Origin: Candidatus Methanomethylicus oleisabuli
GTDB taxonomy: Archaea > Thermoproteota > Methanomethylicia > Methanomethylicales > Methanomethylicaceae
Reading direction: 5' to 3'
DNA length: 42,329 nucleotides
Assembly (NCBI GenBank): GCA_001717025.1
Contig: MAGU01000038.1
Span: 1 to 42,329, forward strand
The position numbers were made by a program, and so were the translations under genes. The notes under the pieces were generated by a model. That model saw only the letters and a program-made list of their open reading frames with translations, was not told the DNA's origin and did not search any database. Positions 8,934 through 42,129 of this stretch are shown here, one piece after another. Each line of letters opens with the position of its first letter. Position 1 is the stretch's first letter.

Positions 8934-10514
8934 TTACTCCTTCACGACCTCCGAGTAGACCCCAACGAACGCCGGCCCCCGGACGTCTATCTTGCCGTGC
9001 CTGCTCGAGACGTACCTCACGCCGACGTCCGAGACCCTGATGTTGATGTCGCTCGGGAGCTTCGCCATCCTCGTCCTGACCTCCATCCTCCCGTCCCGCT
9101 CGACCCTGGCGGCAGCCATCTTCGCCACCGCGTCAAGGTACCTCACCCCTGTCCTTATGCCCTTGGACCTGGCGTTCCTGATCAGCTCCACGCCCTCCAT
9201 CCCCTCCTCCGGGATGCCCAGTATGTTGCCGTCGTAGACCACCAGCTCGTTGAACGCCGCCGGCCCGACCAGCTTCACGTTCGGGTCCGGCTCGAAGACC
9301 TTTACCCTGACCGCCCTGCCCCCGACCCGCCCCTCGAAGGCGACGAACTCGCAGGGGCTGCCCGCGCCCCTCATCTCCTCGACCTTCCTGACGATCGCCC
9401 TCTCCACCTCCCTCCCCTCGGCGGTCCCCGGCTCCTCTATGAACGATATCTGCCTTGCCAGCGCCGCGTCCGAGAGGATCCACTCTCCGTAGAACTGCGG
9501 GTAAGCCATCTCTCTGATGTCCGAGTAGCCGTTGAGCAGCATGGCGATCCGCTCGACCCCCATCCCGATGTTGAGGACCGGGTGCTCTATCCCGTACCTC
9601 GCAAGCGCGACCGGGCTGTAGAGCCCGAAGTCCATCAGCTCGACCCACCCCGCCTTCTCCGACCTAGCAAAGACCTCGTGCTCCGTCCCAGGCGCGTAGT
9701 ACTTCGCCGTCACCCTCTTCCGCTCCGTCCTGACCTCCTGGAAGCCGAGCCTCCTGAGCACCAGCTCTGCCACTGCACTGCCGTCGTCCACCGAGACCTC
9801 GTCGTCCATTATGACCGACGATGCCGCGTTGTGGAACCTCAGGTGGGAGGCGTCCTCCTGCTGCTCCCTCCTAGCCCTCAGCCCGACGCAGAAGAGCTTC
9901 ACCGGCATCTCCAGCTTGTGCTGTACCGCCAGGCACGTCTGGAACCATGCGCTGGTTATGTGCGACCGCAGGAGCATCTTCGTCGGTTGCGCCTCGACCC
10001 TCCTCAGCTCCGGGAAGACCTCGTTCATTACCTTCAGCGCGAGCGTGTCCGGTACCCCCATCCCTTCCGTCAGCCTCTCCACCAGGTCGTCCCCGTCAAC
10101 CTTCCCCTTCTTGTAGTCGTGGAAGACCCCCCTCACCCTGGCGAGCGCCTCCTCGTCCGTCGGCGCGCCCAGCCTCCTCATCTCCTCGACCTTCTCAGCG
10201 CCGATTCCGATGTCCGGCCTTGGGCGCGTCGCCAGGTAGTAGCACCTGTCCAGTATCGCCGGCGCCTCGTTCCCGTACTGCTTGTAAAGGTCTGCCTCAT
10301 CGACCGTCATGGGGTTCACGACCTCGTCGAAGCCGAGCTCGAGGTAAGCCTCCCTCAGCCTGTTAGCCGTCTCGGAGAGGACGTGCGCCGCCCCCCTCCT
10401 GCCCTGGTTGGGCTGGAACGCCCCCCTCCCTCCAACAAGCCTCCCGGTCTCCGCCCACGCTGCCTCGAAGTCCCTGTCCGCCTTCTCCAGCACCTCCTTT
10501 ATGTTGAACCTCAT
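8934..10514 (-). CDS. sepS: O-phosphoserine--tRNA(Cys) ligase (SepRS)
   Basis: A class II synthetase that charges tRNA-Cys with phosphoserine, which SepCysS then converts to cysteinyl-tRNA. The 526-residue protein shows the pocket segments LLRSHITSAWFQTC and HLRFHNAASSVIMDDEVS, the motif 3 GMGVERIAML and a C-terminal anticodon-binding region. ATG 10514 is preferred over one seven codons earlier because GGAGG precedes it. The partner gene is not in this window. It lies directly behind a translin-family gene. The enzyme is known mainly from methanogens, Archaeoglobus and some uncultured archaea, so it is a strong lineage clue. Confidence 0.93.
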   Translation of the reverse strand: MRFNIKEVLEKADRDFEAAWAETGRLVGGRGAFQPNQGRRGAAHVLSETANRLREAYLELGFDEVVNPMTVDEADLYKQYGNEAPAILDRCYYLATRPRPDIGIGAEKVEEMRRLGAPTDEEALARVRGVFHDYKKGKVDGDDLVERLTEGMGVPDTLALKVMNEVFPELRRVEAQPTKMLLRSHITSAWFQTCLAVQHKLEMPVKLFCVGLRARREQQEDASHLRFHNAASSVIMDDEVSVDDGSAVAELVLRRLGFQEVRTERKRVTAKYYAPGTEHEVFARSEKAGWVELMDFGLYSPVALARYGIEHPVLNIGMGVERIAMLLNGYSDIREMAYPQFYGEWILSDAALARQISFIEEPGTAEGREVERAIVRKVEEMRGAGSPCEFVAFEGRVGGRAVRVKVFEPDPNVKLVGPAAFNELVVYDGNILGIPEEGMEGVELIRNARSKGIRTGVRYLDAVAKMAAARVERDGRMEVRTRMAKLPSDINIRVSDVGVRYVSSRHGKIDVRGPAFVGVYSEVVKE

Positions 10515-10535
10515 CTGCGATGCGCCTCCAACCAT

Positions 10536-11171
10536 TCAATCGTGCACTGCCCTCTCCCGCATAGCCCTCTCCATGCTCTCCCTTATCCGCTGCCCCTGGA
10601 GCGCCAGCGTAACGTCGCCCCGTGTCTCCTCGACGAGCCTCCTGTTGACGTCGACCTTCCTCTTAAGGTTCGGCACGACCGCCCTCGGGAAGTCGAGGCT
10701 CTTGAGCGCCGTGTAGGCCTCCTCCATCACGCCGAGCGCCCTCTCCGCCTCCGCGAAGTCGTCCCTCCTGAGCGAGTCGAGCGCGTGCCTCCGCATCTCC
10801 CCGACGGCGTCGGCTAGCCCGGTTATGTAAGCCTCTACCGGCACCCTCAGCCGCTGCGGCGACGGAGCCTCCTCCCCCCTGATGATCGCGGCGAGGATGT
10901 TTGCCTCCGCGTACTCCTGGAACGCCTGCGGCAGGGGGCCGACGTAGTAGAACTCCTGGCGCCCGGCGCAGACCTCGAGCGCCCCATCGAGCGCCCTGCG
11001 CGCCTCCGCCAGGCTCCCCTCCGCCGCCTGCCGGTCCCCCTTGTGGATGGACAGGACGGCGCTGCCGGACCTCCTGATTATCTCCCTAGAGAACGCGATT
11101 ACCCTCTCCCTGTCCCCGTCCTTCGCCTTCAGGACGGCGTCTATCTCTGACAGCTGCCTCTCGAAGCCCAT
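10536..11171 (-). CDS. Translin-family protein (COG2178-like)
   Basis: A 211-residue all-helical protein resembling archaeal translin/TRAX homologues, which bind nucleic acid and in some cases act as RNases. Visible features are the N-terminal heptad-like helices (GFERQLSEIDAVLKAKDGDR), the conserved REIIRRSGSAVLSIHKGD segment and FQEYAEANILAAIIRGEE. The last carries glutamates like those of the TRAX active site. Its stop codon abuts the SepRS gene, so the two are probably co-transcribed. A second ATG 12 bases upstream is possible. The cellular target is unknown. Confidence 0.8.
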   Translation of the reverse strand: MGFERQLSEIDAVLKAKDGDRERVIAFSREIIRRSGSAVLSIHKGDRQAAEGSLAEARRALDGALEVCAGRQEFYYVGPLPQAFQEYAEANILAAIIRGEEAPSPQRLRVPVEAYITGLADAVGEMRRHALDSLRRDDFAEAERALGVMEEAYTALKSLDFPRAVVPNLKRKVDVNRRLVEETRGDVTLALQGQRIRESMERAMRERAVHD

Positions 11172-11195
11172 ATCCGGCACCACTCAAAAGTGAGT

Positions 11196-12134
11196 TCACC
11201 TCACCTTTTTAGGCTTACCTATCCGGCTGAGCAGGGCGACCCTGCTTATGGGCACCTCGCCCGCCAACTCGTAGCCGGTCATCCCCGCCAGCTCCCCAGC
11301 GAACTCGACGACCTCGCGGTGGCTCGGCATGCTCTCGAACCCGAGCCTCGTCGTGGAGAAGCCGACGTGCATGTAAGCCTTCACCTCGACGTAGGTCGGC
11401 TGGCTCGACGATATGATCCTGGCGTATCCGGCTGGGTCGCAGAGGTTGAGCCCCCTGACCGCCGTGATCCGGACCGCGGTGGGGCACGAGAAGCTCCTGA
11501 GCATGCCGAGGGACTCCATGAGCCGCCCCCAGCTCCCCTCCGAGGTTGGCCTGCAGACCTCGTTGTATACCTCCTCGGACGGCGCGCTGAGGGAGATGTA
11601 GAGCTGGGTGGGCTCCCTGATCCTGCCGAGCGCCGAGGGGTTCGTGCCGTTGGTGACCAGGAACGTCGTCATCCCCCTCTTTGAGAACTCGCCTATCAGC
11701 CCGTCAAGCCTGGAGTACATCGTCGGCTCGCCGCTCAGGCTTATCGCGGCGTTCCTCGGCTCCATAGCCTCCGCGAACCTCGCCATGTCGACCTTCGGGT
11801 GGCCCTTGAAGCCGTTGAGCAGCCTCCTCTGCGCCGCCACCGACTGCTCCGCTATATAAGCCGGGTCGTCCTCCGCCCCCATTGCGCCCCACGCGCCGGC
11901 TGAGCCGTTCTCGCCCGGCAGGAGCCTCCAGCAGTACCTGCACGCGTTGGTGCACCATGCCGCTGCTGGGGACATCTGCAGGCAGCGGTGGCTGCTGATG
12001 CCGTAGAACTTCGCCTTGTAGCACATCTCCCCGCCGGTGAGCGCCTCCTTCGCCCAGTGGCAGACCTTCACCGCCGAGTGGCCTCCGACCGCCCTGTATC
12101 CCTGCGCCCTCAGCGCCCCAAGGGGCGTCAACAA
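11196..12134 (-). CDS. taw1: tRNA 4-demethylwyosine synthase (Taw1/TYW1), radical SAM
   Basis: Taw1 builds the tricyclic base 4-demethylwyosine at position 37 of tRNA-Phe from N1-methylguanosine and pyruvate. The 312-residue protein has both iron-sulfur sites of the family. The radical SAM cluster is CTNACRYCW with Cys61, Cys65 and Cys68. The second site uses Cys25, Cys38 and Cys51, spaced 13 apart as in characterised TYW1. LSGEPTMYSRLDGLI and FLVTNGTNP are further family blocks. The start is a TTG at 12134. It lies 21 bases behind the proteasome beta gene on the same strand. Confidence 0.93.
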   Translation of the reverse strand: MLTPLGALRAQGYRAVGGHSAVKVCHWAKEALTGGEMCYKAKFYGISSHRCLQMSPAAAWCTNACRYCWRLLPGENGSAGAWGAMGAEDDPAYIAEQSVAAQRRLLNGFKGHPKVDMARFAEAMEPRNAAISLSGEPTMYSRLDGLIGEFSKRGMTTFLVTNGTNPSALGRIREPTQLYISLSAPSEEVYNEVCRPTSEGSWGRLMESLGMLRSFSCPTAVRITAVRGLNLCDPAGYARIISSSQPTYVEVKAYMHVGFSTTRLGFESMPSHREVVEFAGELAGMTGYELAGEVPISRVALLSRIGKPKKVR

Positions 12135-12155
12135 TGGATCCGCCCTCCCGGCGGG

Positions 12156-12773
12156 TCACGCCTTCGCGGGCAGGGATTCTTCCTTGAGACCGTTCTTGCA
12201 TATCATTACGACGTCGATGCCGTCGCCTGAGGCGATGTCCCTCGAGATCGCCGCCCTTATGGAGCGCACAGCGAGGTCCCTTCCCTCCTTCGCGGTCATC
12301 TCCTGATTGTAGGCGCCCTCGATTACGCTTATCGCCAGCGAGCCGCCGGTCCCTATCGCCGCATACTTGTCCTCGATCATCGAGCCAAGCGGGTCCAGTA
12401 TGTACATCCTCGGCGCGTCAGGGTCCACCCCTCCGACGATCGTCTCTGCGAATATCGGGAAGTACTTCTGGGAGTACAGCATGTTCGCCAGTATCTTGGC
12501 TGTGGACTTGACGCTCATGGGCGAGTGCGTGTCGAGCTCGTAGAGCCTTGTCTCGGCGCTGAGCCTCCTCATGACCGCCTGCGCGTCCGAGATCAGCCCC
12601 GCGAATGCTACACCAACCCTTTCATTGATGGCGAAGACCTTCTTCCCCGCCTTGGTCATTATAGAAAATCCGTACGCGACGCGCTTCTCTGATGCGAGCA
12701 CGACGCCGTCCTTGCACACTATCCCGACGGTCGTCGCGCCTGCCGATGGATAACCGAACTGCTCTCCGGACAA
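12156..12773 (-). CDS. psmB: Proteasome beta subunit, probably non-catalytic
   Basis: A 20S proteasome beta-fold protein: GATTVGIVCKDGVVLASEKR, GKKVFAI, AIGTGGSLAISVIEG and a C-terminal DGIDVVMICKNG. Aligned with the beta subunit at 28505 (GTTTVGVVCRDGVV), the catalytic Thr1 is Ala13 here and Asp17 is Glu, while Lys33 is kept. Self-processing and peptidase activity are therefore unlikely unless the next Thr substitutes. Crenarchaeal proteasomes are known to mix beta subunits of which one is not processed. The longest frame starts at 12830, but its first codons are the TATA box itself. TTG 12773 fits a start site near 12790 and gives about 205 residues. Confidence 0.85.
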   Translation of the reverse strand: MSGEQFGYPSAGATTVGIVCKDGVVLASEKRVAYGFSIMTKAGKKVFAINERVGVAFAGLISDAQAVMRRLSAETRLYELDTHSPMSVKSTAKILANMLYSQKYFPIFAETIVGGVDPDAPRMYILDPLGSMIEDKYAAIGTGGSLAISVIEGAYNQEMTAKEGRDLAVRSIRAAISRDIASGDGIDVVMICKNGLKEESLPAKA

Positions 12774-12782
12774 CTCTGAAAA

Positions 12783-12808
12783 CCTCTCAACATTCAAAGG
12801 TTGAGAGG
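12783..12808. promoter_or_regulatory. Perfect 9-bp inverted repeat at the psmB promoter
   Basis: CCTCTCAAC and GTTGAGAGG are separated by 8 bases and sit immediately downstream of the minus-strand TATA box, around the expected transcription start. This is a good position for a repressor operator. Confidence 0.55.
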
Positions 12809-12811
12809 CGG

Positions 12812-12822
12812 ATATAATAAAT
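12812..12822 (-). promoter_or_regulatory. TATA box of the 12156-12773 psmB gene
   Basis: On the minus strand this reads atttattata followed by tcc. It lies about 40 bases before TTG 12773. In the longest reading frame it would encode RFIIS, which argues against the upstream start. Confidence 0.6.
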
Positions 12823-12830
12823 CTTATCAT

Positions 12831-13145
12831 GTGGATGCCGGCAAATCGATGATGCAGTCGGGATCAAGGCGCCTCCTTGCTTCGGGCTTGCCCGCCTCCT
12901 GAACGAGCAGTCGGCGCCGGCGCCGCCCTCATGGTAATGCCTGCAAACCCGATCCCGGCGCGCGCCGCTCCGTTAATCCGCAGGGGGATCGTGGTGGAGA
13001 TGGAAGGGAGATGGAGCTACGGAGCGAGGGAGAGGGCGACAAAAAACAACCGCATCCGTTAAAAGCAGGTCTAGATTGGAGGCAAAAACAGGAATCCGCA
13101 TTGCCTCCTCAATCTCGATTCGCCAGCATCTCGGAGAGAGCAAGG
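12831..13145. other. Intergenic region, no gene seen
   Basis: GC-rich, with only short open frames of poor composition. It lies between the psmB promoter and the broken MFS gene. No RNA gene or repeat was recognised. Confidence 0.5.
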
Positions 13146-14407
13146 ATGAGTAGTGGAAGGATCGCGACGAACCTCGGCTTCACGGGGCTCCCCCGCCAGA
13201 TCTACCTCCTCATCGGAATAACATTCGCGCTCTCCTTAGGCAGGAACATCGCATTCCCTTACCTTGCGATCTACCTCACAAGCGGCGCGTCGAACGGGGG
13301 CCTCGGGATAGACCCATCGATAGTAGGATTCATGCTGATGGTCGGCGGGCTGACCTCAATAGCGATGCTGCTCGTAACCGGGAGCCTCTGCGACAGGGTC
13401 GGCAGAAGGAAGACGACGCTAATCTATGCCATCCCGCTGATCTTCCTCACCCTCGCCCTCGTACGTTACCTCGCCATGGGAGTTCATGCTGGTGTACGGG
13501 CTTATGGGCGTCGTCGGGGCGTTCTACGACCCGGCCTATAATGCGATGGTAGCAGATCTCGTCCAGCCGAGCAGGCGTGAGGAGGTCTACGGCCTCTGCT
13601 ACATGACCAATAACATCGGCACGGTCGTGGGCCCACTCATCGGAGGCTTCATGCTCGCAACGACCACTTACTCCGCGCTCTTCAGAGTGATGGCCGCCTT
13701 CGTTGTAGCGGTGTCACTGGCCATATTCTTCGGTATAAAGGAGACCAACCCCTCGGGGGCGGGCCGCGCCCAGACCGGCATCGGGCCGGCAGGGGTCAAC
13801 CCCTTCAGGGGGGACCGCCTCTTCCTCATCTACTGCCCCCTTGCCGCGATGACCAACATCGTATACTCCCAATTCTATGGGTTGCTGTCCGTCTACACGG
13901 AGTATGTCGGCATGCCCGCCTACGAGTTCGGGATACTCTACTCCATAAACGGCGCGATGGTCGTACTGCTGCAGATACCGATAAGGAAGGCGACCATGCA
14001 CATAGGTAGCAAAGTCCTTCATGCTAGCGCAGACTCTGTTCGCGGTGGGATTCTCCACCTTCTTCTTCTCCCGAAACCTATCGCAGTTGGTTGTGGGGGA
14101 CATCATCCTCACCCTCGGGGAGATAACGATAGTGCCCGCGGCAAGCGGCTTCATAGCGAACCTGGCGCCTGCAAGCCAGAGGGGCAGGTACATGGCGTTC
14201 GCGAGCCTCTCCGCAGGGGTGGGCGGCTCTGTTGGGAACTACTTCGGCTTCAAGATCTACAGCCTCATGACATCAAAGGAGTATGTCTGGGCGGCGCTGG
14301 GCGCTGTGGTTTTCCTCACCCTCCCCGGCTATGCATACATGCACATGATGAAAAAGAGGCGGCTCGCGGATGGGGCGCGTCCTTCAGGAGGCGGTAGCTC
14401 AACTTAA
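13146..14407 (+). pseudogene. MFS transporter broken by two frameshifts
   Basis: Three overlapping frames read in order as one major-facilitator transporter of about 420 residues. Frame 1 (from ATG 13146) gives the first helices and the loop signature CDRVGRRKTTLIYAIP. Near 13465-13485 the frame changes to PWEFMLVYGLMGVVGAFYDP and the central helices. Near 14005-14020 it changes again to SFMLAQTLFAVGFSTFFFSR through the last helices, ending KKRRLADGARPSGGGSST. The protein level is well conserved, so the loss is recent or the assembly has errors. The substrate cannot be assigned. The intact gene would export or import a small solute across the cell membrane. Confidence 0.82.
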
Positions 14408-14641
14408 GTCAAAATAACTAAACTTGAATAACGCAAGCAAATGACTTAGTTATCCCGATTCGGCACAACCCGCATTGCCTTAATTTAATTTAATTTAAGT
14501 TAACCTCGGTCAGGCAGGCAGGCAAGCGAGCAACCCGAATAGCTTCTATCAGATCAGCTTAAACTATCTAAGCGCAACTCAACTTAACGCAATCCGCCTC
14601 AACATGGATTGACTAGACTCTGGTCGGCTCGGCTCCGCAGC
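14408..14641. other. Intergenic region with simple repeats
   Basis: AT-rich stretch between converging genes. It contains taattt repeated three times (about 14479-14497) and caggcaggcaggcaagc. No gene was seen; it probably holds the two transcription ends. Confidence 0.5.
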
Positions 14642-16156
14642 TCATCTTAAATCTGCCCTTCCGTCCGGCAGGGTCTCGGGGTACTTGAGTGGGTCGATCT
14701 TCTTGTCGATCCTTCTTCGGAGCTCCCTGACCTTCTTCCGGAAGACCGCCACTAAAACCACTGCTGCCACCACTGCAACCGCGACCGCTATCCTGATCGA
14801 GACGTCGAGCCAGTAGATGCCTATTGCGTCCTGCGCCTGCTTGTATGCGCCCTGGAAGTCCCCTGTCGCATACGTGTCGAACGCCTCCTCGACCGCCGCC
14901 CTCTCGCCGAAGACGTCGAGGACGTAGAACCGCGAGGTGACCCTATCCTTCGCGTCCAGCAGGAACTGCGCCGTCTCGAGAGCAAGCTGCCCATTGGCAT
15001 AGTCCGTCACTTCGATTGTGAACCCCAGGCCGTTGGCGCTCAGCAGCCTCAGCACGACGACCGATACGTCGTTCTCCTCATCCAGGAAGACCGCCGTCTT
15101 GCCGGCCCTCAAGTCGAAGACCGCGTCGTCCAGCGTGCCAGTCGAGGGCGTCGAGTCGATGACCCTCAGCGGGCCGTAGCCGGGCTCGATGCTCTCGTTG
15201 ACGTGGGTGATGAGGACTCCGAAGTCCGGCATCTTCTCGTCGTAGCGTACGGGTAGCCTGCACTCAACAAGGTAGTACGTCCCGTCGTTCAGCTGTATCC
15301 TTATCGCGCCGTAGCGGCTGCCGCTGAGCTTCCCGAGCTCGTTCACGTTGCATGCCGCGGTCTCGCTGGGCATCACCGTCCTGACGCTTCTATCCGGCAT
15401 CCACCCGAGCCTTATTAGGTTCCAGGACGTAAGTGCCGACTCCTCATACCTGTAGTCGTTAGACATTATGTCCCAAGGGCCCGCGTAGAAAGAAAAGTAG
15501 CTCCCGCTCGAGTAGCTGGCGTAGTCGTACAGGTCAGGCAGCCCGAGCGCGTGGCAATATTCGTGCGCAATCAGCACCCACCGGTCATACTCCGCATCGA
15601 TCATGATGCACTCCAGCGTCGCGCCGTCGCCGGTCTCGATCCCGAGCCCGTCCAGGGTGTAAGAGCTGCCCCCGAACTGCGCCGAGGAGCCTGCGTGCAG
15701 TATTACAACGCTGTCGTATGCCGAGAAGTCGACGTCCCCGTCTGCCATGGCAAACGCCTCCTCGGCGAATGCCCTAAGGGCATTGTACCCGTCGCCGCCC
15801 GAGAGGTAATCTCCGATGCTGCGGTTTGCCATATACCACCTCTGGCTCACATTCACCGTGAGGTAAATCTCGCCATAGGAGACCGTGTAGAAGTAAGACG
15901 CGACCCTTGAGAACTCATTCCTTATGCTCGAGATCATGAGGTTGTGCGCAAGGTCCGGGAACTCGACGAGGAGCACCAGCACCTTCTGCTCGCCCTGCCT
16001 CCCGTCCAGCCTAGGGTAGAGGCTGCCCTGTGCAACGTCTTGGGCTTGGGCTGAGGGGGCGGATGTGGCTGAGGCGCCAGCCGCAACTCCCTGTAGCGCC
16101 GCCGTCGAGAGTGCCAGCGCCAGAATTACGCCGATAGCGATCTTGTGAAAAGCCAT
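14642..16156 (-). CDS. Secreted, membrane-anchored M6-type metalloprotease
   Basis: A 504-residue zinc protease exported from the cell. Residues 1-27 form a signal peptide (basic FHK, then a hydrophobic IGVILALALSTAALQGVAAG). The catalytic motif is HEYCHALGLPD (His198, Glu199, His202 and Asp208, HExxHxxGxxD), as in the M6/immune inhibitor A group. YAGPWDIMSND follows with the Met-turn-like methionine. A transmembrane helix lies near 456-476 (IAVAVAVVAAVVLVAVF), followed by a basic cytoplasmic tail (KKVRELRRR). The catalytic domain therefore faces outside. It probably degrades external proteins or processes surface proteins. It appears transcribed alone. Confidence 0.87.
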   Translation of the reverse strand: MAFHKIAIGVILALALSTAALQGVAAGASATSAPSAQAQDVAQGSLYPRLDGRQGEQKVLVLLVEFPDLAHNLMISSIRNEFSRVASYFYTVSYGEIYLTVNVSQRWYMANRSIGDYLSGGDGYNALRAFAEEAFAMADGDVDFSAYDSVVILHAGSSAQFGGSSYTLDGLGIETGDGATLECIMIDAEYDRWVLIAHEYCHALGLPDLYDYASYSSGSYFSFYAGPWDIMSNDYRYEESALTSWNLIRLGWMPDRSVRTVMPSETAACNVNELGKLSGSRYGAIRIQLNDGTYYLVECRLPVRYDEKMPDFGVLITHVNESIEPGYGPLRVIDSTPSTGTLDDAVFDLRAGKTAVFLDEENDVSVVVLRLLSANGLGFTIEVTDYANGQLALETAQFLLDAKDRVTSRFYVLDVFGERAAVEEAFDTYATGDFQGAYKQAQDAIGIYWLDVSIRIAVAVAVVAAVVLVAVFRKKVRELRRRIDKKIDPLKYPETLPDGRADLR

Positions 16157-16425
16157 CCGTCTCTGCCTGCACTGGATTAGACTGTCTGAACAACAGTATA
16201 ATGTTTATGTCGTGCCCTCACCTTCGGGGCGCCGCGTTCAGCGTGTCGCCGCGTGGCATAGTGCTGCCAGGCGGGTCACCCGCTGCTTGCCGGCGCCGGC
16301 TGGCCGCGCCTTAGGGCGCTGGGGCGCGCTACTGCGAAGGCTCAGCTCAATCGGTCACCGGATGGGGCGGCTGGGAAATGCTCAAGTGCACGATCCCACA
16401 CATCTGTCATGCTGGTCTGCTGGCT
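16157..16425. other. Intergenic region upstream of the UPF0248 gene
   Basis: The left 50 bases are AT-rich and hold the protease promoter. The rest is GC-rich with several self-complementary words but no recognised RNA gene. Open frames here look like chance. Confidence 0.4.
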
Positions 16426-16695
16426 ATGCCGACGATAAGGGCCGTCCTTAACAGGCTAAAATGGTCGACCGAGGGCGGGCTATCCGACTGTGAGGTCTTC
16501 ATACTCCACCGTGGGGCGCCGGGCAACCTCAGGTCAATTCAGGGGCGCTACATAAAGGACGTCGCCCCGCGCGCCCTCATCTGCGAGGAGGACGGCGAAG
16601 AAACCCTTATCCCTTACCACCGTGTCAGGTTGATAAAGAAGGGCGCGAAGACGGTCTGGGCGAAGGCCGGCACGCCATCTGCTCGGCGAGGTTAG
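16426..16695 (+). CDS. UPF0248 (DUF504) family protein
   Basis: An 89-residue archaeal protein of the DUF504 family. The signature runs IRAVLNRLKWSTEGGLSDCE, FILHRGAPGN, then IPYHRVRLIKKGAKTVW, with the conserved HRG and PYHR. The function is unknown; related proteins occur near RNA and tRNA-modification genes. ATG 16426 is chosen because the family starts here; the longer frame from 16378 adds an unrelated leader. Confidence 0.85.
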   Translation: MPTIRAVLNRLKWSTEGGLSDCEVFILHRGAPGNLRSIQGRYIKDVAPRALICEEDGEETLIPYHRVRLIKKGAKTVWAKAGTPSARRG

Positions 16696-16870
16696 GGGCG
16701 AAGGAGAAGACGAAGAAGACGAGGGAGAGATGAAAGGGAAAGGAAAGGGAGCCTAAGCGAGAGAGGGAGAGAAAAGCGCCTGAGGATGTTAGCAGGCGGC
16801 CGGGGCGCAGAAGACCGATGCTGCGGGTCCGCGGCGCAGGCGAGCTATATGCTATATGGGTGATTCATAG

Positions 16871-17884
16871 ATGAGGCAGCCATTCGAGACGATGCCGACG
16901 GTCCTGACCTCTGAGGAGATCATAGGCAAGGCGTACAGGGAGAACGCCAAGTCGGAGCTGGAGATGTCCGACCGCGTCCCTGCCATAGTGAAGGCGAAGA
17001 GGCGCGAGGCCGCGCGGATCAAGATAATCGAGGAGACTACGGCGGGGTATATCGAGGGGCTCGTCAAGTCCGTCCCGACGATCGAGAAGCTCCACCCGTT
17101 CTACAGCGACCTGCTGGAGATCCTCGTAGGCACAGAAAAAACCAAGGCGGCGCTGGGCAGGCTGAGCCGCACGGCGCGGATAATCCGCGAAGCCGGAAAG
17201 TCGGCGAACGGGAGGCTCAGGTCTGTGAGGGGCTCGGCTGCAGCGGGGCTGATACGCCGCTCCTACTTCGGGAGGGTCGCGTCGCTCGTTAGGGCTGCAG
17301 ACGCCGACCTGCGCCTAGTCGCGGAGCTGCGGGAGAAGATGAAGGACCTGCCGACCGCAGACCCCTCGATGCCGACCGTCGTCCTCGCCGGGTACCCCGG
17401 CGTCGGCAAGTCCACGATAGTTCGCGCCCTGTCCTCCGCAAAGCCGGAGACGCGCACATACCCCTTCACAACGAAGGAGATCATCATAGGGCACGTGAGG
17501 AGGGGGTACATGACCTTCCAGATCGTAGACACACCCGGGATACTCGACAAGCCGCTCTCCAAGCGCAGCAAGGTGGAGCTTCTCTCGATCAGCGCCTTCG
17601 GGAGGCTCTCGAACGTAATTGCCTTCATAGTCGACGTCTCGGAGGGCAACGAATTCTCGCTCGAGAGCCAGAGGGGGCTCTACGACGACGTCGCGGGTGC
17701 GCTCAAGGATACTCCTATGAAAGTCTTCTTCAACAAGGTCGACCTTGCCACAAAGGAGCAGCTTGCCAAGGCGGAGTCCATATTCGGGCAGTGCGACCGA
17801 CTCTCGGCGCTGAAGGGCGACGGGCTGAACGCGCTAGCCTGGAAGCTTGAGTCCGCCCTCAAGGAGGCATTCTCCGCATCCTGA
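16871..17884 (+). CDS. Nog1-like GTP-binding protein
   Basis: A 337-residue archaeal homologue of the GTPase Nog1, which acts in large ribosomal subunit assembly. The N-terminal helical domain (1-150) includes KAKRREAARIKIIEE. The GTPase domain carries G1 GYPGVGKS (174-181), a threonine in the G2 loop (YPFTTKEI), G3 DTPG and G4 NKVD near 290. It lacks the long C-terminal extension of the eukaryotic protein, as archaeal forms do. A TATA-like gctatatg precedes it at about 16848-16856, and it appears transcribed alone. Confidence 0.9.
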   Translation: MRQPFETMPTVLTSEEIIGKAYRENAKSELEMSDRVPAIVKAKRREAARIKIIEETTAGYIEGLVKSVPTIEKLHPFYSDLLEILVGTEKTKAALGRLSRTARIIREAGKSANGRLRSVRGSAAAGLIRRSYFGRVASLVRAADADLRLVAELREKMKDLPTADPSMPTVVLAGYPGVGKSTIVRALSSAKPETRTYPFTTKEIIIGHVRRGYMTFQIVDTPGILDKPLSKRSKVELLSISAFGRLSNVIAFIVDVSEGNEFSLESQRGLYDDVAGALKDTPMKVFFNKVDLATKEQLAKAESIFGQCDRLSALKGDGLNALAWKLESALKEAFSAS

Positions 17885-32860: not shown

Positions 32861-33310
32861 ATGCGATTCGGGGTCGGATTTACATTGGTTAAGGATAAGG
32901 ATGATGATAAATTCAAGGATAACGATGCTGCCTCGGCTAACGATGCCGATCAAGGCGAGGCAAACGAGAAGGGGGCAGCGGAGAAGCCAAAGCCCAAGGC
33001 TACTAGGGTCACTTCTAAAGATGTCTTGGAAGAGATCAACCAGCTGGATGGCAAGGTAGAGTCCTTGGGGACAAAGGTGGAGTCGCTCGCCGAGTCGATG
33101 AAGGCTGGGCAGATGGCAACACCATCGCCTCTCCATAGCCCGTGGCTGGGGCTCTTCCTTGTGGGGATAGCCGGCGCGGCGGTCGGAACGATCTTGATGG
33201 CGATCTTGCAGCCAGTCATAATCGGGCTGTTGGTCGTTGGGGCAGGGGCGGTCATCGGCGCGATATCCGCCTTGAAGCTGTGGGGCAAGAACCCATCAAA
33301 GAGTGCTTGA
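32861..33310 (+). CDS. Coiled-coil protein with two C-terminal membrane helices
   Basis: A 149-residue protein. It has an acidic, disordered N-terminal part (DKDDDKFKDNDAASANDADQ), a short coiled coil (about 55-80, VLEEINQLDGKVESLGTKVE), then two hydrophobic helices (about 95-115 GLFLVGIAGAAVGTILMAIL and 118-138 VIIGLLVVGAGAVIGAISAL). It probably has its N terminus in the cytoplasm. The function is unknown. ATG 32861 is used, but the TATA at 32838 favours TTG 32885 (VKDKDDDK) as the translated start. Confidence 0.7.
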   Translation: MRFGVGFTLVKDKDDDKFKDNDAASANDADQGEANEKGAAEKPKPKATRVTSKDVLEEINQLDGKVESLGTKVESLAESMKAGQMATPSPLHSPWLGLFLVGIAGAAVGTILMAILQPVIIGLLVVGAGAVIGAISALKLWGKNPSKSA

Positions 33311-33410
33311 GCCTGGCACCATATGCGCCGAATGCATAGCATCTGCCCCATAGGCGCGCCTTTAGAAAAACATAACTTTTTAATAGTAATCCGTTTTATT
33401 CCACTGAAGA

Positions 33411-33526
33411 GGGCCGGTAGCTCAGACTGGCAGAGCGCCCGCTTGGCAATGCGGGCTTGCAATGCCGTTGCAGCCACCGCACCAGAGTGCGGGAGGCCAC
33501 GGGTTCGAATCCCGTCCGGTCCACCA
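33411..33526 (+). tRNA. tRNA-Ala (anticodon GGC) with an intron of about 39 bases
   Basis: The acceptor GGGCCGG/CCGGTCC includes the G3-U70 pair that marks alanine tRNA. The D stem is GCTC/GAGC, the anticodon stem CCCGC/GCGGG with loop TTGGCA, and the T arm ACGGG-TTCGAAT-CCCGT. The discriminator is A and CCA is encoded. The 3' half of the anticodon stem lies 39 bases too far away, so an intron sits at about 33449-33487. The intron contains an inner hairpin TGCAA/TTGCA. A canonical position 37/38 is assumed. Confidence 0.9.
33449..33487 (+). other. tRNA-Ala intron
   Basis: The 39-base insert lies between positions 37 and 38 of tRNA-Ala, with one base of ambiguity. It can pair GCGG with CCGC near its ends and TGCAA with TTGCA inside. 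This is the expected substrate form for the archaeal splicing endonuclease. Confidence 0.7.
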
Positions 33527-35914: not shown

Positions 35915-36009
35915 GCTCTGGTAGTATAGTCCGGTCAAGTATACTGGCCTCTCGGGCCGCAAGGCGGAGACAGTCAGTGACACGGGTTCGAATCCCGTCC
36001 AGAGCACCA
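35915..36009 (+). tRNA. tRNA-Glu (anticodon CTC) with an intron of about 17 bases
   Basis: Acceptor GCTCTGG/CCAGAGC, the AGTCCGGTCAA D loop typical of archaeal tRNA-Glu, anticodon stem CTGGC/GTCAG and loop CTCTCG...A (CTC at 34-36). The T arm is ACGGG-TTCGAAT-CCCGT and CCA is encoded at 36007-36009. A 17-base intron (35955-35971) separates positions 37 and 38. The D stem is not ideal. A TATA-like cttaatatt lies about 30 bases upstream. The integrase begins just past the 3' end, so this tRNA is the likely attachment site. Confidence 0.82.
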
Positions 36010-36010
36010 A

Positions 36011-36057
36011 TGAACCTTTTTTGACCTCTTTTTATGCCCCTGTTGAAAAAAGGTTCA
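36011..36057. repeat. 12-bp perfect inverted repeat between tRNA-Glu and integrase
   Basis: TGAACCTTTTTT (36011-36022) and AAAAAAGGTTCA (36046-36057) are exact inverted copies 23 bases apart. The left arm overlaps the possible TTG start of the integrase and the right arm lies within it. It could be an integrase-binding site, a tRNA terminator or an RNA hairpin limiting integrase translation. Confidence 0.8.
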
Positions 36058-36911
36058 TCAAAAAAGGCCAGCCTGGCGGAAAGTTGCCTGGCTGCAAAGT
36101 ACAAGTCCTTGCCGGCTTCATCGACTATTGCGAGGTGGACAGGCGGCTCAATCACAAGACCGCCGTCAACCATAAGCGGCGCATCGAGCGCATTTTGGAG
36201 TTCTGCGGCGCCGGGAACGGCGGCGGAGTGTCAACGGCATCGATAAGGGCGTTCCTCAGGACCCTGAACGTTGGGCATGCCAACAACTTCGTCAAGTCGC
36301 TGCGCGTCTATTTCCGGGACTACATGAAGCAGGGTTACCTCGTCGACACTTTCAGGATTGTCCAGGCCGACGCGTCCCCTCCCCGGCTGTTCACGAAAGC
36401 CGAGCTGAGGGCGTTCTATCTCGCTTTGGGGTTCCCCGCCGAGCGCGCCCTGTTCCTGCTTTACGCCACTTCCGGCCGCCGGCGCCTGGAAATCCTGAAT
36501 CTCAGGCTGCCCGACCTGGACTTGGCCAACCTGGTGATTATGCCGAACAGCCAGAGCCAGACCAAGCACACGTGGTACAGTTTCTTCAACCGGGAGTGCG
36601 CCGGTGCCCTCAGCGAATACTTCAAAATGCGCGCCGACAGGTTTGGCACAGGGCGGGTCTTCATCCTCCCATCATACAAGCGCGACAGGCTCTTCGCGGG
36701 CGCCAGGCAAAAGACAGGGCTGAAGATCACCCCCCGCGTGCTGCGCTTCTGGTTCGCCAACGAGATGGCGAGGCTCGGCGTGCAGGACCGGTTCATAGAC
36801 GCCTTCCAGGGGAGGGTCCCGAGGAAGGTCCTGGCAAGGCACTACACCGACTACTCCATGGAAACCCTGAAGCGGATCTACGACACGGCGGGGCTGAAGG
36901 TGCTGGAGTGA
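36021..36911 (+). CDS. Archaeal tyrosine integrase at tRNA-Glu
   Basis: A 296-residue site-specific recombinase. The N-terminal core-binding part (about 27-110) leads to a catalytic domain. It has LLYATSGRRRLEIL (box I arginine), QTKHTWYSFF (Lys182), TPRVLRFW (box II, Arg239-x2-Arg242 with Arg in place of His), QGRVPRKV and LARHYTDYSM (Tyr275 or Tyr278). The substituted box II is seen in other archaeal integrases. The start is unclear. TTG 36021 is the first option, but the frame is open back through the tRNA, so this could be the C-terminal half of an integrase split at its own attachment site. Its end overlaps the methyltransferase remnant. Confidence 0.85.
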   Translation: MTSFYAPVEKRFIKKGQPGGKLPGCKVQVLAGFIDYCEVDRRLNHKTAVNHKRRIERILEFCGAGNGGGVSTASIRAFLRTLNVGHANNFVKSLRVYFRDYMKQGYLVDTFRIVQADASPPRLFTKAELRAFYLALGFPAERALFLLYATSGRRRLEILNLRLPDLDLANLVIMPNSQSQTKHTWYSFFNRECAGALSEYFKMRADRFGTGRVFILPSYKRDRLFAGARQKTGLKITPRVLRFWFANEMARLGVQDRFIDAFQGRVPRKVLARHYTDYSMETLKRIYDTAGLKVLE

Positions 36912-37676
36912 AGCCTCCCCTCAGTCATTGCTGCGTATTCCTTGTTGACCTCGATCCCCGTGCACGCCCTCCCCAGCCCCCGGCAGGCGACCATCGTTGT
37001 CCCCGAGCCGACGAAGGGGTCGAGCACAGAGGTCGCCCGGGTAGCTGAACGCCCTGACCAGCCTCCCCACGAGCTCGAGGGGCTTCTGGGTAGGGTGGGG
37101 CGTCCGCTCGCCCTTCCTGAAGTGGCACTTGTTGGGGGCGAAGAGGACGTCTGTCATGTACCTGCCCCCCAGGCACTCTGCGCTGCTCCTGCGCTCGACG
37201 TCGTAGAATGAGCACCCCGTTGGTATCCGCTTCCTGTATGGCCCTCCGGGGCCCTTCGCCTCATCGGGGTTGTACCGCAGCCTCCCCTTGCTCCAGACCG
37301 ATATGAGCTCGTGCCTTGACAGCGGCTTCTGCCGGCACTGGAGGAAGTTGACGGGCCCGGGCTTTACCCAGACGATGTCCGTGCAGTACCTGAACCCGGC
37401 TGCAGAGATCTCTGGCCCGAGGCGCATGAATGTCGAGGCGTGCCCGAATAGGAGCATGGCGCGGTCGTCCTTCAGGATGCGGTAAAGCTCCCCGAAGACC
37501 AGCGGCCACCTGATGCGGCTGCCATCGAGGGCGGGCATGTGCTCCTTCCTCACGCGGGGGGCGTTGCCGAAGAGGTACGGCGGGTCGGTGAGGACGAGGT
37601 CGAACGACTCAGTGGGGAGCTCCGGGAGCGCGCCGTGGGCGTCGCGGTTCATGAGGGACATTCCATCGGGGAGCAC
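36878..37676 (-). pseudogene. DNA methyltransferase (DPPY type) with a single frameshift
   Basis: A beta-class DNA adenine or cytosine-N4 methyltransferase. Motif IV is LVLTDPPYLFG (Asp31-Tyr34), with a target-recognition region between. The conserved PHPTQKPLELVGRLV precedes motif I. After SYPGD the frame is lost. One base further along, VLDPFVGSGTTMVACRGLGR and TGIEVNKEYA (motif I, SAM binding) appear in another frame and run to a TAG at 36878. So one extra base near 37030-37033 breaks it, unless it is a sequencing error. The start could be GTG 37676 or ATG 37661. Its end overlaps the integrase 3' end tail to tail. Confidence 0.85.
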
Positions 37677-37975: not shown

Positions 37976-38818
37976 CTAAGCCCGCTCGATGAGGAGCTTG
38001 CCGAAGTAAGCCTGCCAGGACAGGTCGAGGTAGCGGCACATCGTCCTCGACATCCCCGCGGACTTGAGGGTCCAGCCGCAGTAGTAGGCGAGGTGGGCGG
38101 GCTCCCTGGCGAAGCCGTAGAATGAGGCGAGTTCGGATGAGCGGAGGTGCCTGAGGAAGTGGACACCGGCGCCGCGCTCGTGGGCGGGGACTTTGGCGCC
38201 ATCTATGAGCTGCTCCTCTATCCCGTAGGTGAGCCCATCGAAGGCCTCTGAGGCGTAGCTGTGGAGGGTCTGCCGGGTGAAGGGGAAGGCGAGCTCCTGG
38301 CCCCGGGCTTTGAAATAGTCGAGGAGCGGCTGCGCCCACGGCTCGTATTTCTGCTCGAGCGGGAGCGCCACGTAGCGGATCCTGCCTCCCCTCTTCGCCG
38401 TCCGGACAGTGAAGACAGCAGCCCTGACTGGCTGCTCGCCCCTGCCGGGCTGGTAGGGCTGCTCGGATGCGTCAGCCCCCCGGGGGCCGTATGGGGTGGT
38501 GGTATCCGATCCGGAGGCTACGCCGACGACCTCGGACGCCCGGGCTGCCCAGAGGTAGGCTGCCATAAGCGCCAGGCGGACGTCCTCCCTCTGCACACGG
38601 GCTATCCTGGAGCGGGTTTCGACAACGCCCTCCGGGAGCTCGTAGACCCTGTAAAAGCCGCCCTCGCCGTCTGGGACTGAGGTGTCGAGGGTGCCCTTCG
38701 GGATGAGCTGCAGCGCCAGCCCGTACGGGATCTTCCTGCCCGAGCCGTAGCGCCTGTGCTTCCTCAGTTCGCAGAGGGTGACCTCGCCCCTGTGCTTCGC
38801 GACGCGGAGGAAGGTCAT
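37976..38818 (-). CDS. Tyrosine recombinase, second in the region
   Basis: A 280-residue recombinase with the full catalytic set spaced as expected: Arg93 in AARASEVVG, Lys142 in RTAKRGGRIRYVAL, His220-x2-Arg223 in GVHFLRHLRSSEL, Trp249 in YYCGWT (in place of the usual His) and Tyr263 in CRYLDLSW. Its N-terminal DNA-binding part is short. It is the last gene of a four-gene minus-strand operon; its ATG overlaps the stop of the 35-residue gene by the ATGA junction. It is only distantly like the integrase at 36021. It may be a resolvase-like or mobility enzyme of the same element. Confidence 0.85.
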   Translation of the reverse strand: MTFLRVAKHRGEVTLCELRKHRRYGSGRKIPYGLALQLIPKGTLDTSVPDGEGGFYRVYELPEGVVETRSRIARVQREDVRLALMAAYLWAARASEVVGVASGSDTTTPYGPRGADASEQPYQPGRGEQPVRAAVFTVRTAKRGGRIRYVALPLEQKYEPWAQPLLDYFKARGQELAFPFTRQTLHSYASEAFDGLTYGIEEQLIDGAKVPAHERGAGVHFLRHLRSSELASFYGFAREPAHLAYYCGWTLKSAGMSRTMCRYLDLSWQAYFGKLLIERA

Positions 38819-38922
38819 GCCGGAGCAGCCTCCTTTGGCTTCATGTGCTCAGGGCAGCACGTGTCCCTGCCATTCGTCTCGTTGGGGCAGCCTGCTATCA
38901 CGCAGCGCCTGTGCCCGCTCAT
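38815..38922 (-). CDS. 35-residue cysteine-rich protein
   Basis: This tiny gene is easily missed. It reads MSGHRRCVIAGCPNETNGRD, then TCCPEHMKPKEAAPA. Cys7, Cys12, Cys22, Cys23 and His26 form a C-x4-C...CC-x2-H pattern that probably binds one zinc ion. GGAGG lies 11 bases upstream of the ATG. Its stop overlaps the recombinase start, and its start overlaps the stop of the 44-residue gene, both as ATGA. The coupling argues that it is real and acts with the recombinase. I do not recognise a family. Confidence 0.75.
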   Translation of the reverse strand: MSGHRRCVIAGCPNETNGRDTCCPEHMKPKEAAPA

Positions 38923-39053
38923 GCATGAGCAGCCTCCTTGTTCCCGCCGAGCTCGAACGCTTTGCATTCGCACGCGGCAGCGCGGTCGCAGCGCCGGCAC
39001 TCCGTCGAACCGGAGGGCCACTGCCCCCAGCAGAAATACTTGCCGCGCCTCAT
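38919..39053 (-). CDS. 44-residue cysteine-rich protein
   Basis: A second tiny gene, beginning MRRGKYFCWGQWPSGSTECR and continuing RCDRAAACECKAFELGGNKE. Cys8, Cys19, Cys22, Cys28 and Cys30 suggest a zinc or iron-sulfur site (C-x2-C with C-x-C). It overlaps the RHH gene before it and the 35-residue gene after it by ATGA junctions. No homologue is known to me. It is probably a partner or regulator of the recombinase. Confidence 0.75.
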   Translation of the reverse strand: MRRGKYFCWGQWPSGSTECRRCDRAAACECKAFELGGNKEAAHA

Positions 39054-39238
39054 GCGGGGACCCCCGCGAGCTTTGCCTTTGTCCTGCCGACCTCCTCCCA
39101 GAGCGCCCTGCGGATGAAATCGTTCCTAGAGACGCACCGGGCCTTGGGCCACAGGTCATCCACCTCGTCCAGGAGCCCCTGCGGGACCTTGACGAGGACA
39201 TCCTGCCCGTCTATTCCGGGTCTTCCAATCTTAGACAT
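39050..39238 (-). CDS. Ribbon-helix-helix DNA-binding protein
   Basis: A 62-residue RHH (MetJ/Arc-type) regulator. The strand is VLVKVPQGLLDEVDDL and helix two SRNDFIRRALWEEVGR. It would bind as a dimer through the strand. ATG 39238 is chosen over a GTG nine bases upstream. It is the first gene of the recombinase operon and probably represses its own divergent promoter region. Confidence 0.87.
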   Translation of the reverse strand: MSKIGRPGIDGQDVLVKVPQGLLDEVDDLWPKARCVSRNDFIRRALWEEVGRTKAKLAGVPA

Positions 39239-39247
39239 GTTCAACAC

Positions 39248-39359
39248 CTTATTATTGCTTATATATTATGTATATGCGCTATATAAAAATAGTGCTTAAC
39301 GATAATGTATAAGCATTAATAACAATTATCTATCGCTTATCGATAATCAATATAATTGA
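39248..39359. promoter_or_regulatory. Divergent promoter region with repeated operator-like words
   Basis: A very AT-rich spacer between the RHH operon and the winged-helix gene. GCTTAACGATAAT (39294-39306) and GCTTATCGATAAT (39335-39347) are near-identical direct repeats 41 bases apart. The second contains the palindrome TTATCGATAA. TATA-like blocks (tatatatta, gctatataaaa) occur at about 39261-39283. These are candidate sites for the RHH or winged-helix protein. Confidence 0.6.
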
Positions 39360-39365
39360 GTGACT

Positions 39366-39650
39366 ATGCATTCTTTAGAGATACTTGAGCAGACAAGCGC
39401 CTGCAGAGTATTGGTATATTTATTGAATAATCCCTCCGTGCCTGTTTCTGAAGTGATGAATAAAGGGGATTTTTCGCAAACTTCGCTTTACAACGCCCTC
39501 CGGAAGCTCAAGGACGCCGGCCTGATTGAAGAGAAGATGGAAGCAACGTTTCCACGGAGGCGGCTGATCTCGCTCACCGAGAAGGGGATGACCGTGGCGA
39601 AGAAACTCGAAGAAATTGAAAGAACGATTGAAGCAACTATTACCCTTTAA
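39366..39650 (+). CDS. Winged-helix transcriptional regulator
   Basis: A 94-residue MarR/PadR-like winged helix: ILEQTSACRVLVYLLNNPSV, then SQTSLYNALRKLKDAGLIEE as the recognition helix and a wing RRRLISLTEKG. A helical tail (AKKLEEIERTIEATITL) could form a dimer. ATG 39366 or GTG 39360 may be used. It is divergent from the recombinase operon and may regulate it. Its end overlaps the TcmP gene by 11 bases. Confidence 0.87.
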   Translation: MHSLEILEQTSACRVLVYLLNNPSVPVSEVMNKGDFSQTSLYNALRKLKDAGLIEEKMEATFPRRRLISLTEKGMTVAKKLEEIERTIEATITL

Positions 39651-40728
39651 AGTTTAGAGTAGCATTTTCATCAGAGTAAGTAAATGCTCTTTTTCTATTC
39701 CCAACATATTCAAACCTATTTTCTTTTTCGAGTTGTTTGAGAATACTTTGCCGCCATATGAAAGGCGTGTTCAATGTTGCCCAATTAATTAATTCGTGTT
39801 GTTTAACGGACGTCCCTCTATACTTTTCATAAATGCAATCTGCTGCCTGTCTGACCCAATCTTGCTGATAATCTAATAATAGTTTCTGATTGAAGTTATA
39901 ATCAGAATAAATATATTGCTTACTAATTTTCCACATAGACTCCTTCATTTGTTTTATTCCGTCGATGCTTTTTGTAAAGAAAGTTAGGTAATATAGGGTA
40001 GTGTTTTTGTCCCCCCTCATTGCAAAAGATAGGTTATAAATTTCCTTGCCTGTGAGCTCTGACAATTTATTCTTAAGTAAGGATAGCCATTTTCTCTCTC
40101 GCTCTTCTTTAGGATGAGTTTTTAATTCATCAAGTGTTTCTTGGTTAATCCCTAATATTTCGCAAATTCCTCCACAGTGCTTGATATCATAAGAAAAGCG
40201 ATCCAAAAAGCCAACTACATAAGTGATGAGTAATTCACACTTGCGGTTTTTCAGAATCTTTGCCAATAAATCTAATCGAATATCCAAGTAGCCATATGGG
40301 TCAATAAAAGCAAAAGTTGGGATGAGCGAGTGCTTATCTTCATCTATTTCACCCAGCATTTGCTCAATTACTTTATTGAAGTCCCCTTTTTCTATCATCG
40401 GTGTAGAAATAAACTTAGGTAGTTCCCCCAAATCTTTTACATTTTTACACAGTGATTCATAATTTTGTTCGTCTAATTCAACGAAGAAGAACTTTAAATC
40501 CTTAAAATATTTTGATAAAACGTGATCACGAGCAGCTTTTATTGCAATAATTGGTGAACCATCTTCACCATCGTCATATTTTCCACGCCCAGCAAAACCA
40601 TCAATATAAGCTATTTTTGTTTCATTTTTTGAAATTATTGGAAACCACGCATCTAAATACGTCTTCAAAATAGCATGCTTTGCTTTGGTATGCGGTTTAA
40701 GATTCCACGAATAATCCTCGTTTACCAT
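39640..40728 (-). CDS. Three-Cys-motif partner protein, TcmP family
   Basis: A 362-residue protein of the TcmP family, which occurs next to radical SAM-like three-Cys proteins. It opens KPHTKAKHAILKTYLDAWFP and has IAYIDGFAGRGKYDDGEDGS, a methyltransferase-like SAM loop, FFFVELDEQN and FAFIDPYGY (a DPPY-like segment). A C-terminal winged region holds the FIWRQSILKQLEKENRFEYV block. The Rossmann-type motifs suggest a methyltransferase-related enzyme, but the activity is not established here. Its ATG overlaps the stop of the radical SAM gene (ATGGTAA). The gene is much more AT-rich than its partner. A role in nucleic-acid modification by mobile DNA is inference. Confidence 0.85.
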   Translation of the reverse strand: MVNEDYSWNLKPHTKAKHAILKTYLDAWFPIISKNETKIAYIDGFAGRGKYDDGEDGSPIIAIKAARDHVLSKYFKDLKFFFVELDEQNYESLCKNVKDLGELPKFISTPMIEKGDFNKVIEQMLGEIDEDKHSLIPTFAFIDPYGYLDIRLDLLAKILKNRKCELLITYVVGFLDRFSYDIKHCGGICEILGINQETLDELKTHPKEERERKWLSLLKNKLSELTGKEIYNLSFAMRGDKNTTLYYLTFFTKSIDGIKQMKESMWKISKQYIYSDYNFNQKLLLDYQQDWVRQAADCIYEKYRGTSVKQHELINWATLNTPFIWRQSILKQLEKENRFEYVGNRKRAFTYSDENATLNFKG

Positions 40729-41735
40729 GTGCAATTGCACCTGCAGTGCTTCCAGTCCATCCCGAGCGCTTCCCACATAGAAACCGGCTCCTTGCATAGC
40801 GCCAGATTGTTGTAGTTATGCTCGTTCTGGATATATTGCAGTATCGATGAGAAGATGTCGAAGCGCTGGGCGAACGGGATCCTGCGACCCCACTTCGACC
40901 TCTCTGCCAGGTATTCAGTCCACGTCCTGTCCTTGGAATTGTTGATGGTGGATTGCAGGCCCCTCAGCGAGCCTATCGTTATCCTGCTGGGTGCCAGCCT
41001 CTTGAAGACACAGTCAATCAGAGTAGTGTAACCCCCGAGCCATTCCTCAGGGTATGCGACTATCGGATCGATCCGGAACCTGACCTCATAACCCGCATCG
41101 AAGAGCTTTCCTGCAGCCTCAACCCTCCTTGACGGCGTGGGTGCGCCCATTTCCCAACGCTTGGCAACTGCCTCTGAATTGATGCTGAACGACGCGATGA
41201 CGTTCTTCTTCAGCTCTTCATCGAGCTGGAGCAGGTTGTCGATCCAGTCCAGCTTGCTCACCAGCAAAACCCGGTGCTTCGCCCCCTTGAACATCGGCAG
41301 GATCTTCTTGCTCAGGGCATCCTCCGACCTTTCCCACATAAGCGAGTCCGCGAGCTCGCCCGAGTTGAGGACCTCCGGTCTTTTGACTTCATCCAAGAAA
41401 CGCTTCACAGCAGGCTCTATGTCCTCAACAGGCCGCTTATTGGGCGCCTTCTTGTTCGGAAGGAACCGCAGAGTGCCCTGCAGGTAGCAGTAGGCGCACT
41501 GGAGCGGGCAGCCGTAGCCCCACTTGAGCTCTAGGAAGTGCGGGCAGACGATGTCCTCGCCGGCAACTGCGGTGCCCGTCCTGTCGAACCGCTTTATTAT
41601 GCGGCCATCACCCACCCTTGAGATGAGCTTCTTACTCTTGCCATCAAGGGTCTGGTAAACCTGGTAAGTCATGAAGCCGTCCTCCTGCCAGAGGCTTGCA
41701 TCTAATCTTGTTTGATAGTTGTTGCAGGAGGCCAT
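40722..41735 (-). CDS. Spore-photolyase-like radical SAM protein (three-Cys motif), partner of TcmP
   Basis: A 337-residue radical SAM protein. The cluster motif is WGYGCPLQCAYCYLQ (Cys76, Cys80 and Cys83), and CYLQ is typical of spore photoproduct lyase relatives. It continues with ELADSLMWERSEDALSKKIL and VRFRIDPIVAYPEEW. The C terminus carries HCRCNCTW, with Cys331, Cys333 and Cys335 as a possible second metal site. A second ATG (41672) preceded by GGAGG is also a likely start. It overlaps the TcmP gene by the ATGGTAA junction, so the products should be made together. Such pairs are known in mobile and phage-like contexts; the substrate is unknown. Confidence 0.85.
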   Translation of the reverse strand: MASCNNYQTRLDASLWQEDGFMTYQVYQTLDGKSKKLISRVGDGRIIKRFDRTGTAVAGEDIVCPHFLELKWGYGCPLQCAYCYLQGTLRFLPNKKAPNKRPVEDIEPAVKRFLDEVKRPEVLNSGELADSLMWERSEDALSKKILPMFKGAKHRVLLVSKLDWIDNLLQLDEELKKNVIASFSINSEAVAKRWEMGAPTPSRRVEAAGKLFDAGYEVRFRIDPIVAYPEEWLGGYTTLIDCVFKRLAPSRITIGSLRGLQSTINNSKDRTWTEYLAERSKWGRRIPFAQRFDIFSSILQYIQNEHNYNNLALCKEPVSMWEALGMDWKHCRCNCTW

Positions 41736-41829: not shown

Positions 41830-42129
41830 CTATTTTTTGAATGCTGCCCCAATAATGCCCATAAGTGCAAGAATGCCCAGCCCGGCCGTTTCCCAATCCC
41901 CCATTGCCCCGCCTATCAATATGAACACCGCAGCAAAACTAAGACCGCCAGAGAATGACGCGATTATCGATGTAACGAGATCTGCGCCTACTACAACGAT
42001 TATCAATAGCCAAACATACCATGGCGAACTGAAGACAGCAAGTGTAGGCAATACAACATACTGAATAATAAGTCCAAAAACAACGCCGCCAATTGCTTCA
42101 TATATCGACTCTTCAAAATCTTTACCCAT
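41830..42129 (-). CDS. Small membrane protein, unknown
   Basis: A 99-residue protein with three hydrophobic segments: GGVVFGLIIQYVVLPTLAVF (about 14-33), WYVWLLIIVVVGADLVTSII (about 37-56) and SFAAVFILIGGAMG to GLGILALMGIIGAA (about 64-96, perhaps two helices). It has a charged N terminus and ends FKK. No family was recognised. A minus-strand TATA-like element (atttaatac, about 42145-42160) precedes it. It may belong to the mobile region. Confidence 0.7.
   Translation of the reverse strand: MGKDFEESIYEAIGGVVFGLIIQYVVLPTLAVFSSPWYVWLLIIVVVGADLVTSIIASFSGGLSFAAVFILIGGAMGDWETAGLGILALMGIIGAAFKK

Follow-up and report, generated by a model that had tools for sequence, protein, structure and literature searches.

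The four-gene operon at positions 37976 to 39238 of a contig from a Methanomethylicia archaeon is best explained, with a probability of roughly 0.7, as an early operon that starts with a gene for an RHH protein and belongs to a virus- or plasmid-like element integrated at tRNA-Glu, with one tyrosine recombinase (int1) beside the tRNA gene and a second, fused one (int2) in the operon itself. The family of integrated elements to which this one belongs is apparently undescribed, and int2 is best read as a second recombinase with an accessory role in its early operon. A literature search, mostly outside the subscription journals, returned no description of these elements; in the literature searched, few viruses are described for the Methanomethylicia, which are methane-cycling archaea. 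In int2, a natural fusion appears to have replaced the part that normally directs a tyrosine recombinase to its DNA, and the protein could help to reveal how enzymes of this kind acquire new targets.

The element at tRNA-Glu and its relatives

The sequence analyzed here (the window) is one whole contig of 42,329 bases from a 1.37-Mb assembly. The gene for tRNA-Glu(ctc) is located on the plus strand at 35915 to 36009, and int1, a full-length tyrosine integrase (36021 to 36911, plus strand), starts 11 nt past it. By analogy with two related elements described below (G021 and C71), the 3' end of the tRNA gene (approximately 35988 to 36009) is the putative attachment site. The enzyme int1 would most likely integrate and excise the element. 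An inverted repeat, TGAACCTTTTTT / AAAAAAGGTTCA, directly follows the tRNA gene (36010 to 36060); C71 and G015 have similar AT-rich repeats at the corresponding position, and these repeats may be core sites of int1. A DNA methyltransferase gene (36921 to 37676, minus strand) separates int1 from the operon. Beyond the operon, the genes for TcmP (three-Cys-motif partner) and a radical SAM protein of the spore-photoproduct-lyase type (39640 to 41735, minus strand) are probable cargo; TcmP matches TIGR04474 (E = 1e-52) and is a candidate defence protein of the PADLOC type PDC-M30A. This pair is found near the slot that holds a 963-aa restriction-type protein in the G021 element. A 99-aa membrane protein (41830 to 42129, minus strand) is common to the G021 element (approximately 62% over 89 aa), and thus the window element probably runs from about 35,990 to past the end of the contig. 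The contig stops at 42329, and the second (right) att repeat was not found in it; no capsid or replication gene was recognized in the window element. Elsewhere in the window (33245 to 33526), an ARAGORN tmRNA call overlaps tRNA-Gly and is probably false.

Two full-length relatives were found, in G021 (JACIVP010000008.1, Ca. Methanosuratincola MAG-2) and in G015 (JACIVQ010000018.1, Methanomethylicales MAG-3), with int1 at 57 to 64% identity and adjoining tRNA-Arg. Both share with the window the winged helix/RHH layout, int1 beside a tRNA gene, 4-nt overlaps, and small Cys-rich genes. Unlike the window, both contain a PF12187-type nuclease, an ATPase, what appear to be membrane proteins, and, on the other strand, a different tyrosine recombinase of 166 aa, and G015 additionally has a Cas4-like nuclease. 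Direct repeats of a tRNA 3' end are present at both ends of two elements: in G021, 45 nt of the 3' half of tRNA-Arg are repeated approximately 21 kb away, defining the att sites, and C71, another contig of the genome that the window comes from, contains a sister element of 4.8 kb flanked by a 20-nt tRNA-Val repeat. This sister element encodes a relative of int1 and a methyltransferase, and of int2 it retains a C-terminal fragment. A 280-nt patch comprising the 3' end of int1 and the end of the methyltransferase gene (36697 to 36976 in the window) is 94% identical to C71, whereas the other shared parts are 73 to 88% identical, which suggests recent exchange between the two elements. In G021 (positions 9376 to 17085 of locus L015), approximately 4 kb is present in two near-identical tandem copies, reflecting either biological duplication or an assembly artefact. 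Scans of IMG/VR with profiles of int2, RHH, ATPase, int1, and the recombinases found nothing, and plasmid and phage records contained no match to int2.

The operon, its regulators, and the small Cys-rich proteins

The operon consists of four minus-strand ORFs encoding the RHH (CopG-like) DNA-binding protein of 62 aa (39053 to 39238), a 44-aa Cys-rich protein (38922 to 39053; C-x10-C-x2-C-x5-C-x-C), a 35-aa Cys/His protein (38818 to 38922; C-x4-C-x9-CC-x2-H), and, as the last gene product, int2 of 280 aa (37976 to 38818). Three ATGA overlaps (39050 to 39053, 38919 to 38922, and 38815 to 38818) couple these ORFs, so that the compact operon proposed in a sequence-only reading of this DNA is indeed present; a single copy of this four-gene arrangement is known. 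The GC content of the operon region is 64 to 68%, and that of most of the adjoining 39250 to 40750 is 35 to 38%.

The same reading had named the first gene product an RHH protein, and this assignment probably holds: the match to PF01402 is weak (E = 0.0056, 17 bits against a cut-off of 20.5), yet the protein is conserved at 61 to 71% identity in four other Methanomethylicia genomes, it matches the repressor PHROG 4738 (E = 0.0004), and the dN/dS ratio between the window and G003 is approximately 0.18. Relatives are kept on five named contigs (G003, G011, G015, G021, and L032), four of which are labelled Methanomethylicia, Methanosuratincola, Methanomethylicales, or Methanomethyliaceae. The 3.6-kb contig L032, which has the winged helix, RHH, and the module found at the N terminus of int2, is labelled Thermodesulfovibrionales bacterium and is probably misbinned. 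Divergent from the RHH gene is that of a winged-helix regulator (PadR/F-93-like; 39360 to 39650, plus strand), which accompanies the RHH relatives on five other contigs; the relatives of this element in Methanosuratincola and other Methanomethylicales share the winged helix/RHH start. Two operator-like sites are found between the two genes (39290 to 39350), TTGATTATCGATAAGCGATAGATAATTG at 39350 to 39323 and ATTATCGTTAAGCACTA at 39306 to 39290. They are 41 bp apart, with identical spacing in the window, G011, and G015, and a TATA-like box adjoins the second site toward RHH. The RHH protein, the winged-helix protein, or both would act on the operon as a switch between maintenance and induction.

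The two tiny genes are probably real, as judged from their translation signals and reading frames. AAGGAGG ribosome sites on the minus strand (38933 to 38939 and 38829 to 38835) are equally spaced before the starts of the 35-aa ORF and int2, as they are before several starts in related operons, and it is these sites that make the tiny ORFs credible. The annotated frame is favoured by the frame scores for all four ORFs, weakly so for the 44-aa ORF, and in a six-frame comparison the own frame was the best for both tiny ORFs, the 44-aa score again being weak. The overlaps alone are not decisive, since 2.3% of dinucleotide shuffles yielded two ATGA-coupled ORFs (at least 20 aa each) that exactly bridge the 235-nt gap. 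That figure, together with the weak codon score of the 44-aa ORF and the lack of relatives of either, would suit the view that both frames are open only by chance in the GC-rich stretch from the RHH gene to that of the recombinase; the matched AAGGAGG sites, the best-of-six frames, and the ordered Cys spacing argue against this view, which we consider highly improbable.

The sequence-only reading went further and suggested, from the fixed coupling, that the small proteins are obligate partners of the recombinase, possibly in a new recombination module. This part is unsupported. In the G021 operon, six of nine junctions are 4-nt RTGA overlaps that also join unrelated genes, which makes the overlap a general style of the operon family; the ATGA overlaps would provide translational coupling in general without marking partnership. 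Neither the 44-aa nor the 35-aa protein has convincing relatives in 40 genomes of the class, and the weak matches of the 35-aa protein proved to be chance motifs where inspected. The inspected relatives of int2 occur without these two proteins, and the RHH relatives precede other genes (in G021, a different gene of 43 aa). A dedicated module, with the tiny proteins serving as directionality or targeting factors, is consistent with the tight coupling and the ribosome sites, with the modulation of the SNJ2 integrase by the co-operonic Orf2 and Orf3 (PMC8371274), and with two further cases: a very distant int2 relative, G459, forms an RHH-small-small-recombinase operon, and the recombinase gene of G446 is preceded, at a distance of 159 nt, by one for a CxxC..HxxC protein. 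On the other hand, the small proteins of G459 are not Cys-rich, and together with the missing relatives, the other inspected recombinase relatives, which lack the tiny proteins, and the generality of the overlaps, this renders such a module very unlikely.

From their Cys/His spacing, the tiny proteins may bind metal. The C-x2-C-x5-C pattern of the 44-aa protein is a possible Fe-S site; its spacing loosely resembles that of a 56-aa protein of G021 and that of the Fe-S motifs of Cas4-like nucleases. The 56-aa protein is one of three small Cys-rich proteins (44, 79, and 56 aa) encoded in the G021 operon, all distinct from the pair in the window. As part of the early operon, the tiny proteins would be metal-binding, and probably nucleic-acid-binding, accessory proteins.

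The chimeric recombinase int2

The catalytic domain of int2 (approximately residues 63 to 280; 37979 to 38632, minus strand) has the full R-K-HxxR-W-Y set of a tyrosine recombinase, as the sequence-only reading had recognized: R93, K142, H220xxR223, W249, and Y263 are all conserved in relatives at 32 to 49% identity. Pfam PF00589 does not match int2 itself, and its matches in the relatives (E = 0.001 to 0.004) fall below the cut-off. The AlphaFold model, which was built from nine sequences (an earlier model from two was uninformative), has a mean pLDDT of 69.8 and a pTM of 0.71, with pLDDT mostly above 70 at residues 61 to 230 and below 50 in the N-terminal module. The top 13 Foldseek matches of this model are all lambda Int or topoisomerase IB, with probabilities of 0.75 to 1.0 and E values above 0.001.

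The canonical N-terminal core-binding (SAM-like) domain is absent from int2, and an unrelated module of approximately 62 residues (N-module; 38633 to 38818, minus strand) takes its place. Searches of PDB, PHROGs, and Pfam returned no match to the N-module, whose homologues are free-standing proteins of approximately 60 aa encoded straight after RHH in G003, G015, and L032 (47 to 53% identity); the module is absent from G021, and the 44/35-aa pair is found in neither G015 nor G021. In profile searches, residues from approximately 57 to 280 have stand-alone relatives of approximately 220 to 250 aa in another order of the phylum. Nine of these (G103, G115, G146, G270, G403, G406, G446, G433, and G487) share the catalytic domain and active-site residues of int2 and, unlike int2, have no N-module but begin directly at the catalytic domain. 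In the six stand-alone relatives whose upstream sequence was examined, neither RHH nor a counterpart of the 44- and 35-aa ORFs was found there. Because the N-module is free-standing in some relatives and the catalytic domain stands by itself in others, int2 is, by sequence comparison, a fusion of an element-specific module with a catalytic-domain-only tyrosine recombinase. With hhalign, int2 gave no alignment to int1 or the 166-aa recombinase, so that it is no recognizable copy of either. In one genus, the stand-alone recombinase has a constant position in the chromosome, between methyltransferase and ABC-transporter ATPase genes (L033, L035, and L051), as if domesticated.

With a separate integrase at the tRNA gene, int2 need not integrate the element; its most likely role is in a second reaction on DNA. 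Guided by the N-module, it would, for example, resolve dimers or invert DNA of the element; a repeat search revealed no convincing inversion sites. Alternatively, int2 may be a leftover of a rearrangement that joined the N-module to a recombinase, the window element being a decaying remnant that has no working second recombinase. The central genes of G015 and G021 are missing from the window element, only a C-terminal int2 fragment remains in C71, and the dN/dS ratio of 0.48 between int2 and that fragment indicates weak constraint. Against such decay, the 280-aa frame is open, contains all catalytic residues, shows good codon usage, and is preceded by a strong ribosome site; moreover, no counterpart of the catalytic domain was detected in G015 or G021, and therefore int2 would not have arisen simply by loss of their central part. 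We regard the leftover as unlikely and retain int2 as an accessory second recombinase. A broader proposal, to which we assign a rather low probability, is that of a two-recombinase family in which one enzyme serves tRNA integration and the other, catalytic-only enzyme is retargeted by the fused early DNA-binding module, while small metal-binding proteins translated together with it would assist programmed rearrangement or multimer resolution.

Comparison with known viruses and integrases

The virus SSV1 encodes small RHH, zinc-finger, and F93-type winged-helix regulators together with a tyrosine integrase (PMC9608457). The window shares RHH and winged-helix regulators and a tyrosine integrase with fuselloviruses such as SSV1, and its relatives encode the viral/archaeal nuclease PF12187. 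It differs from them in int2, the N-module, and the tiny ORFs, for which no homology was detected, and no fusellovirus capsid gene was recognized. The suicidal integrase of the Fuselloviridae, with the att site inside its gene, is not seen here: int1 is intact beside tRNA-Glu, and the att repeats of the relatives are located in the tRNA.

Characterized archaeal integrases work without directionality factors, and the SNJ2 integrase is aided by two operon partners (PMC8371274). The SNJ2 operon orf1-3, in which the integrase shares its transcript with small helper genes influencing recombination (PMC8371274, PMC13107129), resembles the window in layout, with no apparent relation in sequence; in the window, however, the operon recombinase is not the one beside the att site. 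Taken together, these comparisons suggest that the early-regulatory-gene pattern as in SSV1 fits the window better than a unit of a recombinase plus partners.
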